In this document: in pieces, positions 15,547-61,183 of the stretch
Layout: every line of letters starts with the position of its first letter
Position numbering within the stretch: position 1 is the stretch's first letter
Assembly (NCBI RefSeq): GCF_011044155.1
Contig: NZ_CP049056.1
Span: 4,096,001-4,160,000, forward strand
Length of the DNA: 64,000 nt
Source: Pikeienuella piscinae
Lineage (GTDB): Bacteria > Pseudomonadota > Alphaproteobacteria > Rhodobacterales > Rhodobacteraceae
Direction of reading: 5' to 3'
Translations under genes and position numbers: made by a program
The notes under the pieces: generated by a model
What the model was told of the DNA's origin: nothing
The model's database searches: none
Seen by the model: only the letters and a program-made list of their open reading frames with translations

Positions 15547-16149
15547 TCAGGCCGCAGCGGCGCTACGCCGACGGGACACGAACCCGAGGCCGCCGATGGC
15601 GCCGAGCATGAGCCAGATCGCCGCCGGCAGCGGCACCTGAACCTGCGCGAACTCGAACGCGTCGGAGTTGCCAGAGGTGAAGATCACCTGATCGAACAGC
15701 AGATCGCTGATGCGCACGTTGACGAAGCCCGCGCCCGGAGCCGGCGGATTGTCGACATCCGTTCCGGTCAGCGAGAAGACGACCGCATCGTCGAGCTTGA
15801 AGACGAGATCGTTATAGCTGTCGGGAGAGCCCCACATCAGGCCGAAATTCGTCTGATCCACGTCGAAGTCATAAGTCAGCGAGGCCCCGGCGGAGACCGA
15901 GTGATATTGGCCGGAGTTCACGAAAGCCGTGCCATCCCAGGGCGAACGAGAGTTCGGAGCCGGGTTGCTGAGGTCGTTGCCCACGAAGTTCAGTCGAACG
16001 TCGCCCGTGGTCGCCGACGGCGCGCGGACATCGCCGGCGGGCGTCGGAACGTCATAGTTGAGCGAAACGGTCGCCGCCTGCGCGACTCCCGCAGTGAAAG
16101 CCATGGCGATCGCCGCCACGCTCATGCGATACATGTTCATGTTTTTCAT
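15547..16149 (-). CDS. VPLPA-CTERM sorting-domain surface protein
   Basis: This is a secreted protein of 200 residues. It has a Sec signal (about residues 8-25, AAIAMAFTAGVAQA), a beta-rich body with many Asn, Ser and Gly, and a C-terminal sorting tail: VPLPAAIWLMLGAIGGLGF followed by SRRR. That tail is the VPLPA variant of the PEP-CTERM signal (TIGR03370), recognised by a dedicated exosortase that is not encoded in this window. The body resembles no enzyme I know. An alternative start three codons in (16140) has better ribosome-site spacing. It shares an upstream word with the two other VPLPA genes here. Confidence 0.82.
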   Translation of the reverse strand: MKNMNMYRMSVAAIAMAFTAGVAQAATVSLNYDVPTPAGDVRAPSATTGDVRLNFVGNDLSNPAPNSRSPWDGTAFVNSGQYHSVSAGASLTYDFDVDQTNFGLMWGSPDSYNDLVFKLDDAVVFSLTGTDVDNPPAPGAGFVNVRISDLLFDQVIFTSGNSDAFEFAQVQVPLPAAIWLMLGAIGGLGFVSRRRSAAAA

Positions 16150-16170
16150 CCCACAACAGAACCAGTTACA

Positions 16171-16180
16171 TCTCCACGCA
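16171..16180 (-). promoter_or_regulatory. Shared upstream word of VPLPA-CTERM genes (copy 1)
   Basis: On the minus strand this reads TGCGTGGAGA, 21 bases upstream of the 16149 start. The same 10-mer lies upstream of the gene at 60282, and a 9-of-10 match lies upstream of the gene at 20019. Function inferred, not shown. Confidence 0.35.
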
Positions 16181-16313
16181 TCCTAGTTAAACTGAGTTCG
16201 TGTTTTTGTAAAATTGAATCTTCGCGCGCATGTTCAAGCGTGGGTTGAGTGGCGATCGCGCGCCTTCTTGCCCCGACGCCAGCTTCGCGATATGCGCGTC
16301 TCTGCGCATCCGC

Positions 16314-16398
16314 GGCCCCGTGGCGGAACTGGTAGACGCGACGGATTCAAAATCCGTTTTCTTCGGAAGTGCCGGTTCGAGTCCGGCCGGGGCCACCA
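16314..16398 (+). tRNA. tRNA-Leu (anticodon CAA)
   Basis: The 85-base gene folds into a long-variable-arm tRNA. The acceptor GGCCCCG pairs with CGGGGCC. The anticodon stem ACGGA / TCCGT encloses TTCAAAA with CAA at 34-36. The T-arm is GCCGG-TTCGAGT-CCGGC and the 3' CCA is encoded. It reads UUG leucine codons. It lies 89 bases upstream of the serine dehydratase gene. Confidence 0.95.
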
Positions 16399-20018: not shown

Positions 20019-20873
20019 TCAGGCGGCCGCGGCGCGCCGGCGTCGGCTGACGAAGCCGAGCAGGCCAAGCCCGCCGAGCAGCAGCGGCAGCGCCGCCGGA
20101 ACCGGAACCGCAGAGGGCGTGACCCCGGTCGAGTCGAGGAAGACGCCCGAACTGGACGTGTAGGTGACGCCGGGGTCCGCATCGATCGCGAACGTGCCGG
20201 TGTTCATGAAGTCCATCATGATGCTGATGTCGTTCTGGTTGGTCGCAGCCGCGACCGATAGCGAGGCGAAGACGTCATACTGCTTGTTCGCCTCGACGGT
20301 GATCGAACCGGAAAGCGTCTGGTCGATATCGAAGAACGTGCTTGACGGCGTTGCGCCGGAGGACGTGCCGTAATCCTGGGCGAACGACCGGGAGATGAGC
20401 GCGCCGCCAAGCGTATTGAAGTTCTGATAGGTCGCGCCCGCGCTCGAATCGTAAACGAAGAGATTGGCGAAGACGAATGCGCTGTATCCCGTCGCCAGAG
20501 GCCCGTTCAGCAAATCGGACACCTCGATGGTTCCGTCGAAATCGAAGGAGAAGCTGACAGTCGTGCCGGCCGCGTCGGGCGAGAACGCCACGCGCTCGCC
20601 GAACGAGCCGCCAGACTGGCCGTTGCTCTGGGCGGACGGGATATTCGTCCGCGCCTTGACGGTCCCGTCATCCAGGTCGACCGTGGACTGGAAATTGGTC
20701 CCGAAGTTCTGCGAGGCGTTCGTCGCCCCGTTCTGCTGAAGGCCGTCGATAAGTCCGCCGCCACCCACCTGGATAAACGGACGCACGAAATAGGAGGCCG
20801 CTTCGGCCGTATGCGGGGCGAGCAGCCCCGCGACAGCCAGAGCCAGCCCCGTGATGGTCAGTTGCTTCGACAC
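20019..20873 (-). CDS. VPLPA-CTERM-type sorting-domain surface protein
   Basis: This secreted protein has 284 residues from GTG 20873, chosen because AAAGGGA precedes it; the frame extends to a TTG at 20909. A signal peptide (ALAVAGLLAPHTAEA, cleavage near residue 25) leads a Ser/Thr/Asn-rich beta body. The tail reads VPVPAALPLLLGGLGLLGF then SRRRR, a VPxPA sorting signal for an exosortase. No enzymatic motif is visible. It is probably a cell-surface or matrix protein. The leader upstream is 395 bases long and holds an inverted repeat and the word shared by the three VPLPA genes. Confidence 0.82.
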   Translation of the reverse strand: MSKQLTITGLALAVAGLLAPHTAEAASYFVRPFIQVGGGGLIDGLQQNGATNASQNFGTNFQSTVDLDDGTVKARTNIPSAQSNGQSGGSFGERVAFSPDAAGTTVSFSFDFDGTIEVSDLLNGPLATGYSAFVFANLFVYDSSAGATYQNFNTLGGALISRSFAQDYGTSSGATPSSTFFDIDQTLSGSITVEANKQYDVFASLSVAAATNQNDISIMMDFMNTGTFAIDADPGVTYTSSSGVFLDSTGVTPSAVPVPAALPLLLGGLGLLGFVSRRRRAAAA

Positions 20874-21268
20874 GACAATAGTCCCTTTCTCGCGGGTCTC
20901 CCCGCGCAAAGCCGAACGGCGGACCGATGCGAACTCGTCGCGGGCCGACGGTCGCAGCGAAAGCCTTGCTGCGACAGCCCGTGCGACGCCTCACATCGCC
21001 GGCGACGGCGATGTTGATCTCACACTCGATTTCGAACGAACCCACAAGCCGGCGGGCGAAAACACCCTGAAACGCCCCAGCTTCACACTTGCACAAAACC
21101 TGCACACGCTCGACGATTAGCCAGCGTCAATAATGAAGTCAAAGAAATTTCCACGCATATCGGTAGGGATATGCGTTATCTCACATCGTGTTAGCGCCGG
21201 TCTCATGCGCCCGCGCGCTGACGCGCCGCCTCTTGCGCGCGGGTGTCCGCGCGGGCCATTCTGAGGGC
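20874..21268. promoter_or_regulatory. Long divergent leader with palindrome ACGCATATC-N6-GATATGCGT
   Basis: This 395-base gap separates the leftward VPLPA-CTERM gene from the rightward carboxylate-amine ligase gene. Bases 21153-21176 form a perfect 9-bp dyad, ACGCATATC / GATATGCGT, with a 6-base spacer. On the minus strand this dyad runs into TGCGTGGAAA (21148-21157), the second copy of the word found upstream of the other VPLPA genes. AT-rich stretches around 21130-21150 could hold promoter boxes. No small gene is evident. Confidence 0.45.
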
Positions 21269-39951: not shown

Positions 39952-42255
39952 ATGCGAATCGCCTGCCTCGGCGGCGGGCCCGCCGGCCTCTATTTCGCGA
40001 TCTCGATGAAGCTGCGCGATCCCGCCGCCGAAGTGGTGGTGATCGAGCGCAACCGTGCGGACGACACCTTCGGCTGGGGCGTGGTGCTCTCCGACGAGAC
40101 GCTGGAGAATCTCGCCCGGAACGATTCGGAATCCGCGGCGGCGATCCGCGCGCATTTCGCCTATTGGGATGACATCGCGGTCGTTCATGACGGCCATCGC
40201 ACCGTCTCCACCGGCCACGGGTTCTGCGGCATCGGGCGCAAGACGCTGCTTCTGCTTCTGCAGGATCGCGCCCGGGCGCTCGGCGTCGACCTGCGATTCG
40301 AGACTGAGGCCGACTGCGCCGAGAGCTATGCGAAGGATCACGACGTCGTCGTCGCCTGCGACGGGCTGAATTCCAAGACCCGCGCCGCGCATGCGGATGT
40401 TTTCCAGCCGGATGTCGATCTGCGGAAGCTGAAATTCACCTGGCTCGGCACCAGGGCGAAATTCGACGACGCTTTCTCCTTCATCTTCGAGAAAACGCCG
40501 AAGGGCTGGGTCTGGGCGCACGCCTACCAGTTCGACGAAGAGACCGCGACCTTCATCGTCGAATGCGCCGGGGAGACATGGGCCGCCTATGGTTTCGGCG
40601 AGATGAGCCAGGAGGAGAGCATCGCGGTCTGCGAGACGATCTTCCGCGATCATCTCGACGGCGCCCCATTGATGAGCAACGCGAAGCATCTGCGCGGCTC
40701 GGCCTGGCTGAACTTCCCGCGCGTCCTCTGCGAGCGCTGGCATCACGGCAACATCGTGCTGATGGGCGACGCGGCGGCGACGGCGCATTTCTCCATCGGC
40801 TCCGGCACCAAGCTCGCGCTGGAGAGCGCGATCGCGCTGGCGGAGTATCTGGCCACCGAGCCGAGCCGCGAGGCGGCGTTCGAGAAATATCAGGAGGAGC
40901 GCCGCGTCGAGGTGCTGAAACTGCAATCTGCGGCGCGCAACTCGATGGAATGGTTCGAGGATGTGGAGCGTTATCTCGACCTCGAGCCGGAGCAGTTCGC
41001 CTATGCGCTGCTCACGCGATCGCAGCGCATCAGCCATGAGAACCTGAGAATGCGTGACGCGAAATGGCTGGAGGGGGCGGAGCGCTGGTTTCAGCGACGA
41101 GCCGGCGTGAGCGAAGCGATGCAAGACGGGGCGCCGGTCCGGGCGCCGATGTTCGCGCCCTTCCGGCTGCGCGGCATGGCGTTGAAGAATCGCATCGTCG
41201 TCTCGCCGATGGCGCAATACAAAGCCGTCGATGGCGCGCCGACCGACTGGCATTTCGTCCATTACGCCGAGCGCGCGAAGGGCGGCGCCGGACTGGTCTA
41301 CACCGAAATGACCTGCGTCAGCCCGGAAGGCCGGATCACGCCGGGTTGTCCGGGGCTTTACGCGCCGGAACACGAGGCGGCCTGGGCGCGGCTGGTGGAG
41401 TTCGTCCACCGCGAGACGGACGCAAAAATCTGCTGCCAGATCGGTCATTCCGGCAGGAAGGGCTCCACCCAGCTCGGCTGGGAGGAAATGGACGCGCCGC
41501 TTAAGGTGGGCAACTGGCCGCTGATCTCCGCCTCCGCGATCCCCTGGTCTGCGCGGAACGCGACGCCGAAGACCATGGACCGCGCCGATATGGACCGGGT
41601 GACGGCGGAGTTCGTCGCGTCGGTGGAAATGGCGGCGCGCTGCGGGTTCGACATGATCGAGCTCCATGCCGCGCATGGCTATCTGATCTCTTCCTTTATC
41701 TCGCCGGTCTCGAACCTGCGCGAGGACGAATATGGCGGGGCGCTCGACAACCGGATGCGCTGGCCGCTCGAAGTCTTTCGCGCCATGCGCGCGGTCTGGC
41801 CCGATGACAGGCCGATGTCGGTGCGTATCTCGGCGAATGACTGGGTCGGCGAGGCGGGAATCGGCCCGGAGGACGCGGTCGCGGTCGCGCGCATGTTCGC
41901 GGAAGCCGGGGCGGACATCATCGACGTCTCCGCCGGGCAAACCTGCGTCGAGGCGCAGCCCGTCTACGGGCGGATGTTCCAGACGCCGTTTTCCGACCGC
42001 ATCCGCAACGAAGCCGGGATCGCGACCATGGCGGTCGGCAATATCTACGAGCCGGACCACGCCAATTCGATCCTGATGGCGGGGCGGGCCGACCTCGTCT
42101 GCCTCGCGCGTCCGCACCTCGCGGATCCGTACTGGACTTTTCACGCCGCCGCGGCGCTCGGCGATGAATACGAGAAATGGCCCGATCCCTATCTGCCAGG
42201 GCGGGACCAGTTGCTGCGCCTCGCGGCCAGGACGGAAACCATGGGGAGAGTCTGA
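39952..42255 (+). CDS. abmA: 2-aminobenzoyl-CoA monooxygenase/reductase (FAD monooxygenase - old yellow enzyme fusion)
   Basis: This is a fusion of about 767 residues. The N-terminal half is a class A flavin monooxygenase: [14 protein letters not shown] at the start and [19 protein letters not shown] near residue 270. From residue 400 it is an old-yellow-enzyme reductase: [32 protein letters not shown] near residue 495 and [13 protein letters not shown] near residue 570. This architecture is that of Azoarcus AbmA, which hydroxylates and then reduces 2-aminobenzoyl-CoA, destroying aromaticity without ring cleavage. Salicylyl-CoA hydroxylase relatives share it. The start is uncertain: 39952 fits homologues, 39922 or 39925 add up to ten residues, and none has a clear ribosome site. 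It is the first gene of a 15-gene run. Confidence 0.9.
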
Positions 42256-60281: not shown

Positions 60282-61007
60282 TTAGGTCGCGCGGCGGCGG
60301 CGAGACGCGAAGCCGAGACCGGCGATCGCGGTCAGGAAGAGCGGCAGCGCCGCAGGAACGGGTACCGCGCTGACCGAAATGTCGTCGATCAGACCGCCCA
60401 GCGTGTTGGCGGTTCCGGTCGCCGAGAAGCCCAGCGTGATCGGCGTGTTGTCCGAAGCCACCGTGAAACTGGCGGTGATCAGAGTCCAGAGGCCGACGCT
60501 CGTGCTGCTGTTCGCGTCAGGCCCGGTCACTTCGCCGAGAAGCAGGGAATTGCTGAGCCCGTCGATCACGGAAAAGCCGATGCCGTTGCTGCCGACATCG
60601 CCATTGCGCGGGCTGTAGTAGAATTCGAGGTTGTAGCGCCCGGAGTCGAGAACCAGATCCTGCGCCATGGTCGAATTCGAGTTCGGCGCCGGATGGCTGT
60701 CGAGTTCGACATAATGCTGGCCGGTACGCGCGTCGATCGAACCGAGCGTATTGTTGGTCTGAACCTCGATGCCGGAGCCGGCGGTCGTCGTCCAGCCGTT
60801 GAGCGATGTGAAAACATCCCAGGACCGGCTGCCGGAGCCGCTGGCGAGACTGCCGAGTGTATTCTGGTTCACGAGGCCGACGCCCGGCGTCGAGCTCGTC
60901 GTGTCCTCGAAGCCGCCATTGACGACAAGGGCCTGCGCCGGAGCGGCGGCGAAGCCGAAAAGCACGGCGAGCGCAACGGCGCCGACGGAAGATTGCACGC
61001 TATTCAT
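60282..61007 (-). CDS. VPLPA-CTERM-type surface protein with an NGGFE (DUF642-like) domain
   Basis: This 241-residue secreted protein has a Sec signal (about residues 8-25, ending APAQA) followed by LVVNGGFEDTTSS, YVELDSHPAPNSN, and GRYNLEFYYSPRNGD, a beta-sandwich pattern of the DUF642/NGxFE type often seen in carbohydrate-binding surface proteins. The tail is VPVPAALPLFLTAIAGLGF then SRRRR, a VPxPA exosortase sorting signal. ATG 61007 has GGGGAG upstream. It shares upstream words with the 15547 gene. Confidence 0.83.
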   Translation of the reverse strand: MNSVQSSVGAVALAVLFGFAAAPAQALVVNGGFEDTTSSTPGVGLVNQNTLGSLASGSGSRSWDVFTSLNGWTTTAGSGIEVQTNNTLGSIDARTGQHYVELDSHPAPNSNSTMAQDLVLDSGRYNLEFYYSPRNGDVGSNGIGFSVIDGLSNSLLLGEVTGPDANSSTSVGLWTLITASFTVASDNTPITLGFSATGTANTLGGLIDDISVSAVPVPAALPLFLTAIAGLGFASRRRRAT

Positions 61008-61080
61008 TTTGTTACTCCCCACAACATTTAACAAACACACTGGGAATATGTGGGAATCTCTCTCGAAATGATAGTGATAT

Positions 61081-61090
61081 TCTCCACGCA
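61081..61090 (-). promoter_or_regulatory. Shared upstream word of VPLPA-CTERM genes (copy 3)
   Basis: The minus strand reads TGCGTGGAGA, 73 bases upstream of the 61007 start and identical to 16171-16180. GAACATGCG (61105-61113) and TGTTGTGGG (61018-61026) flank it and also recur in the same order at the 16149 gene. Confidence 0.35.
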
Positions 61091-61183
61091 CAGCCATCGA
61101 GCATCGCATGTTCTTGGTTAATCAAGTACTTGCCGACCGTCGCGGTGCGAAATACCTTTATTCTGACACTTTCGCGCCCTGTT

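Follow-up and report, generated by a model that had tools for sequence, protein, structure and literature searches.

The window, that is the whole stretch of 64,000 nucleotides analyzed here (G000:C1:4096001-4160000), comes from a genome of 4.37 Mb assembled as a single contig and contains three genes encoding proteins with a VPLPA-type C-terminal tail. Their coordinates are given in Table 1 together with those of the short sequences in their leaders. A search of the whole genome with the TIGR03370 profile revealed 29 VPLPA-CTERM matches, 19 of them above the cut-off; gene 3 scored 26.7 bits in this genome search (above the cut-off) and 23.9 bits when it was scanned as a whole protein (under the cut-off). 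With regard to sorting, the genome possesses an XrtD exosortase (TIGR04152; G000:C1:4309811-4311286) with a score of 661 bits (cut-off 400), as well as substrates that combine a signal peptide with a VPLPA-CTERM tail above the cut-off. One of the matches (L007; G000:C1:2849922) is a VPLPA-CTERM remnant, a 93-aa open frame with stops upstream in which a signal peptide was not found, and two others (L025 and L026; G000:C1:1974430 and 3831971) represent a single VPLPA-CTERM gene with its leader in two identical blocks of 1126 bp in opposite orientation. For gene 1, a start at 16140 is likelier than one at 16149 because of the signal peptide MNMYRMSVAAIAMAF and because, with a start at 16149, TTGTGGG would abut the ATG. 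Due to the divergent tRNA gene upstream, the intergenic leader of gene 1 spans about 170 nt at most.

Table 1. Genes, ten-base words and leader sequences in the window (positions are those of the window).
Feature	Position	Strand	Description
Gene 1	15547..16140	-	197-aa exosortase-dependent surface protein, VPLPA-CTERM tail, Npun_F0296 domain; above TIGR03370 cut-off
Gene 2	20019..20873	-	284-aa secreted protein, VPVPA tail, GTG start; under TIGR03370 cut-off
Gene 3	60282..61007	-	241-aa secreted protein, VPVPA tail
tRNA gene	16314..16395	+	divergent, upstream of gene 1
TGCGTGGAGA	16171..16180	-	ten-base word upstream of gene 1
TGCGTGGAAA	21148..21157	-	ten-base word between gene 2 and the divergent gene, closer to the divergent one
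TGCGTGGAGA	61081..61090	-	ten-base word upstream of gene 3
TTGTGGG	16150..16156	-	gene 1 leader, Shine-Dalgarno place, first G 12 nt from ATG 16140
TTGTGGG	21041..21047	-	distal copy, 167 nt upstream of gene 2 GTG
TTGTGGGG	61017..61024	-	gene 3 leader, Shine-Dalgarno place, first G 13 nt from ATG 61007
TTTGT	61031..61035	-	second TTGT copy, further upstream in gene 3 leader

The initial annotation had singled out a ten-base word, here written TGCGTGGARA, as the possible target of a regulator shared by the three genes. Its three copies lie exactly where they had been reported, all on the coding strand, and the spacings of 21, 73 and 274 nt are correct for starts at 16149, 61007 and 20873, respectively; as 16140 is the likelier start of gene 1, the first spacing becomes 30 nt. 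Two further shared sequences had been mentioned, of which TGTTGTGGG (16150-16158 and 61018-61026) indeed occurs nowhere else in the window, whereas GAACATGCG is present at 16227-16235 and 61105-61113 as claimed but has a third copy at 41890-41898. The window contains three copies of the word where 0.29 are expected, and every one of them precedes a VPLPA/PEP-CTERM gene; 2 of 100 shuffles reached three. This excess over chance is weak at best, and the word had been picked after reading the sequence. In the 4.37-Mb genome there are 16 copies, and the 13 outside the window, most of which lie inside coding frames when read individually, are not near any of the other 26 VPLPA-CTERM matches of the whole-genome search. 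As a signal of VPLPA genes the word therefore fails, since 26 of the 29 matches lack an exact copy. Allowing one mismatch, it was found in 4 of 27 VPLPA leaders (the three of the window and that of L005) and in 1 of 82 control leaders, and with two mismatches it was no commoner than in controls (5/27 versus 12/82). It was not seen in the leaders of the gene 3 orthologs L113 and L157 over the stretches inspected. When triples of control leaders were drawn at random, a comparable sharing (two leaders identical, the third with at most one mismatch) arose in 324 of 20,000 cases (1.6%), and 13 of the 2925 triples of VPLPA leaders displayed it. The genome-wide copies, the VPLPA matches without the word and the control triples rule out TGCGTGGARA as a signal of the family, and the word is probably a chance similarity. 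One of its copies (L030; G000:C1:47008) lies in the loop between the arms of an extended, G+C-rich inverted repeat that resembles a terminator without a T-run.

The real signal was pointed to by TGTTGTGGG, which had been noted as a side remark, and not by the more striking word; that a regulator reads it is what we infer. When leaders were aligned, the element consisted of at least one TTGT, often in the form TTGTGG, and downstream of it three to five consecutive G's within the last 60 nt or so before the start, and the first G of the run was mostly 9-14 nt away from the ATG, in the place of a Shine-Dalgarno sequence. In the window, TTGTGGG occurs exactly three times, always on the coding strand and once upstream of each of the three genes. 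The proximal zone of gene 2 contains neither GGGG nor TTGT.

For the comparison with other genes, the VPLPA leader set comprised 27 of the 29 matches, as L007 (a broken frame of 93 aa without a start) and L026 (gene and leader identical to those of L025) were left out. Controls were drawn from 40 stretches of 20 kb plus the window, amounting to 864 kb with 653 called genes, among which 82 non-PEP-CTERM genes had a good signal peptide. All starts are predicted; leaders with a start score below 2.8 were excluded, the starts of L003, L014, L022 and L024 were set by hand, and the choice was stricter for controls (score of 3.4 plus ATG) than for VPLPA genes (2.8). The control set is unmatched for operon position or A+T content, VPLPA leaders being A+T-richer. 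Both GGGG and TTGT had been picked after viewing the leaders of this genome, and the leaders of G001, G002 and G004 had likewise been read before counting.

TTGTGGG and its relatives were among the top words of the own-genome leaders (7/27, as compared to 0.57 expected from dinucleotide shuffles). Within 200-nt leaders, TTGTGGG was present in 7 of 27 VPLPA genes and in none of the 82 controls, with 0.07 expected at the genome rate. Between positions -20 and -3, GGGG was encountered in 16 of 27 VPLPA leaders (15 without the hand-set start of L024, which brings GGGG into the zone) as compared to 6 of 82 control leaders (Fisher 7.9e-8), whereas the canonical GGAG, AGGA or GAGG prevailed in the controls (54/82 versus 8/27). 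A pronounced strand bias was observed for TTGT between -60 and -3, with 28 forward and 2 reverse occurrences in VPLPA leaders versus 5 forward and 14 reverse in controls, and this bias was absent from -120 to -60 (3 forward, 5 reverse). The TTGT and GGGG counts of this genome exceeded those of all 2000 composition-keeping shuffles of each leader. GGGG together with an upstream TTGT was found in 11 of 27 VPLPA leaders and in no control (0/82), and at least one of the two in 21 of 27 versus 11 of 82; the six VPLPA leaders with neither proximal element include that of gene 2 of the window. A de novo EM motif search on long leaders did not return the element, and in several settings low-complexity motifs scored about as in shuffles.

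Predicted pairing with the anti-Shine-Dalgarno sequence, for which the usual sequence was employed, had a median of -7.9 kcal/mol for VPLPA leaders and of -7.4 kcal/mol for controls (P 0.96), and no difference between the two sets was predicted in how unpaired the ribosome site is. A more accessible or a stronger ribosome site was rejected as the explanation on these grounds, and as the pairing equals that of controls, a need for stronger or weaker initiation does not account for the letters. A pattern for the usual 3'-end of 16S rRNA, GGCTGGATCACCTCC, had no match in G000, where the rRNA may be masked or its tail may differ; with a changed anti-Shine-Dalgarno sequence, the comparison of pairing would be less telling.

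Patterns built on the element were then used to scan genomes, the matches being assigned to genes in the own genome, G001 and G002. In the own genome, TTGTGGGGN{2,12}ATG gave 11 matches and the reversed control pattern one; four of the 11 were situated before VPLPA-type genes. One of these genes, at 2156659, is missing from the TIGR03370 list; its product is a choice-of-anchor A protein that ends in an APLPAP...RARRKAA tail. Thus, the TTGTGGGG...ATG pattern uncovered a missed gene of the exosortase type, and in two genomes of the same genus it uncovered exosortase E. All four matches in G002 belong to three VPLPA genes and exosortase E, and four of seven in G001 belong to VPLPA genes and exosortase E, with two others in frames that look non-genic; the two sets are not independent of each other, since the genomes are close. 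The pattern also has matches in G003-G006, G008 and G010. Exosortase E (TIGR04162) was scored on the G001 copy (L233; 361 bits), to which the G002 copy (L224) is identical but for one residue over the portion compared, and this exosortase E/protease gene (L233:1405-2907; L224) has the leader TTTGTGGGG. Upstream of it, in both genomes, lies a short ORF that includes a VPEID-like stretch and has its own leader with an ordinary AAGGA. In front of the ATG of the own-genome XrtD gene stands CCTTGTTGGAGCAACTGG, which resembles the element more loosely, and L198 and L201, own-genome genes of the PEP-CTERM type outside the first list, have GGGG in the Shine-Dalgarno place. A looser form of the pattern hit 8 gene starts in the 864-kb sample, two of them of VPLPA genes, and is without specificity, because its control pattern also hit 8. 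On the minus strand of the region around G000:C1:272773 (L272), TTGTGGGG and TTGGGG precede the GTG of a secreted-looking protein without a VPLPA tail in the part read, and judging from this case the element may extend beyond exosortase genes. A common control of the sortase-like surface proteins, as proposed earlier, thus finds no support in the ten-base word but does in the TTGT/GGGG element, which is enriched, strand-specific and predictive in the VPLPA set.

The TTGT...GGGG element is lineage-limited, being found in one genus and partly in a second. In G004, from another genus of the same family, GGGG was found in 7 of 15 leaders versus 0 of 18 controls, and the TTGT count remained within shuffles. 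For G001 and G002 taken together, after removal of 10 near-identical G002 leaders (33 reduced to 23), GGGG alone was not above shuffles. The element is absent from G010, where GGGG occurred in 0 of 12 leaders. Among 40 VPLPA-like genes beside XrtD, nearly all from other Rhodobacteraceae and drawn from 80 XrtD loci (the best 80 of 403), GGGG was present in 8 of 40 versus 19 of 172, and TTGT was seen 15 times forward and 12 times reverse; neither part stands out in these 40 genes, and a family-wide feature made of G-run and TTGT can be discarded. Comparison of orthologs gave a divided picture: in the diverged pairs L002/L106 and L024/L153 the element is kept while the flanks differ, whereas it is not kept in the pairs of L001, L017, L027 and L028. 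In the case of L017/L113, the G001 gene is located immediately behind a second VPLPA gene, which has TTGTGGGG in its leader, and this one case fits an element that belongs to the transcript's 5' end and not to every single cistron.

In some of the own-genome leaders another sequence recurs, namely GAACATGC, which in either orientation is present in 6 of 27 VPLPA leaders (L003, L004, L010, L011, L017 and L018, directly or as reverse complement) versus 0 of 82 controls, with 0.35 expected at the genome rate. It is absent from the leaders of the related genomes G001-G004 and G010, and an operator or chance are both possible.

Computation shows that the TTGT...GGGG element exists, where it lies, that it is biased to one strand and that it is specific to this set of genes. 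Because it occurs near-exclusively on the coding strand and only near the start, its most likely site of action is the mRNA, where ribosomes bind; the mRNA leader is also indicated by the location of the element, by its strand bias and by the sharp drop of the enrichment at about -60. We therefore favor, with a probability of roughly 0.45, a leader element in the mRNA that sits at the ribosome-binding site and marks the genes of exosortase surface proteins for joint control. The G-run would serve as the Shine-Dalgarno sequence in place of GGAG or AGGA, and since nothing about the ribosome itself would call for this sequence, a shared post-transcriptional factor is favored. Such a putative factor, an RNA-binding protein or a small RNA, would recognize UUGU...GGGG and gate the access of ribosomes to many exosortase-substrate messages; in the genomes of the same genus it might also gate the exosortase E message, and cargo and sorting enzyme could thereby be tuned together. 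A candidate small RNA was sought as CCCCACAA within 30 nt of a T-run, and the one match was itself a leader on the other strand. AbcR- or GcvB-like small RNAs and CsrA are examples of one factor that acts on many messages by binding at or near the ribosome site; the CsrA core, ANGGA, differs in sequence from the leader element. The full form of this proposal, in which messages for cargo and sorting enzyme share a UUGU...GGGG ribosome-site element that is read by a putative RNA-binding regulator, is possible and is put forward tentatively. If true, it would parallel, at the post-transcriptional level, the control that PrsR and sigma-54 exert on PEP-CTERM genes.

Alternatively, TTGT...GGGG could be a DNA operator, whose direct repeats at gene starts would be bound by a transcription factor, for example a repressor. 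Operators of the direct-repeat kind would likewise be compatible with the multiple copies of TTGT, the constant orientation and a set of genes resembling a regulon, but the G-run keeps both the spacing of a Shine-Dalgarno sequence and its predicted anti-Shine-Dalgarno strength, and the enrichment ends at about -60, so that we judge an operator rather unlikely. Similarly unlikely is a habit of the lineage without any regulator, according to which single-gene, A+T-richer leaders with a GGGG site and a GU-rich stretch were inherited as the family duplicated. The confinement to one genus and partly a second, the higher A+T content of VPLPA leaders and the gene present in two identical 1126-bp blocks agree with such a history; however, composition shuffles fall short of the counts, exosortase E carries the element and is no substrate, and the flanks of the leaders do not align. 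Control of PEP-CTERM genes by PrsK/PrsR and sigma-54 is very improbable as the source of the shared leaders, for although a perfect TGGCACN5TTGC exists in leader L025 (and its identical copy L026), such a site is found in only 1 of 27 VPLPA leaders, the others having at least three mismatches or no GG/GC frame. Least probable of all is an operator formed by TGCGTGGARA for a regulator shared by VPLPA genes, whose case consists of the three window copies and the near-copy in L005, against the genomic distribution, the two-mismatch counts and the ortholog leaders described above.

Published control of exosortase substrates, as far as the excerpts of two reports extend, is of the sigma-54 class (PMC1569441, PMC9850573). 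The excerpted text of Haft et al. (2006; PMC1569441) describes a sigma-54 promoter and an activator site that precede 99 of the 167 PEP-CTERM genes of proteobacteria, and states that further motifs are still to be discovered. Similar to our case, a shared upstream sequence there marks many exosortase-substrate genes, which form single-gene operons. In contrast, that excerpt places a promoter (-24 GG/-12 GC) together with an activator site whose end lies, on average, 71 nt ahead of the start, whereas here TTGT and GGGG are found at the ribosome site and sigma-54 fits 1 of 27 leaders. Likewise, pepA of Aquincola tertiaricarbonis, in the excerpt of its report (PMC9850573), is an exosortase substrate under regulation whose upstream signal has been mapped, but it is RpoN-dependent and its control is transcriptional through sigma-54. 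In the titles and abstract openings retrieved on VPLPA-CTERM, the regulation of PEP-CTERM and exosortase leaders, no such leader is described.

If real, a leader tag common to the substrates and, in close relatives, to the sorting enzyme would provide a handle on the timing with which the cell surface is dressed, and it would also be a bait for pulling out the regulator. The short signal shared by these genes suggests that a single bacterium uses a common tag to control many messages for its surface proteins.
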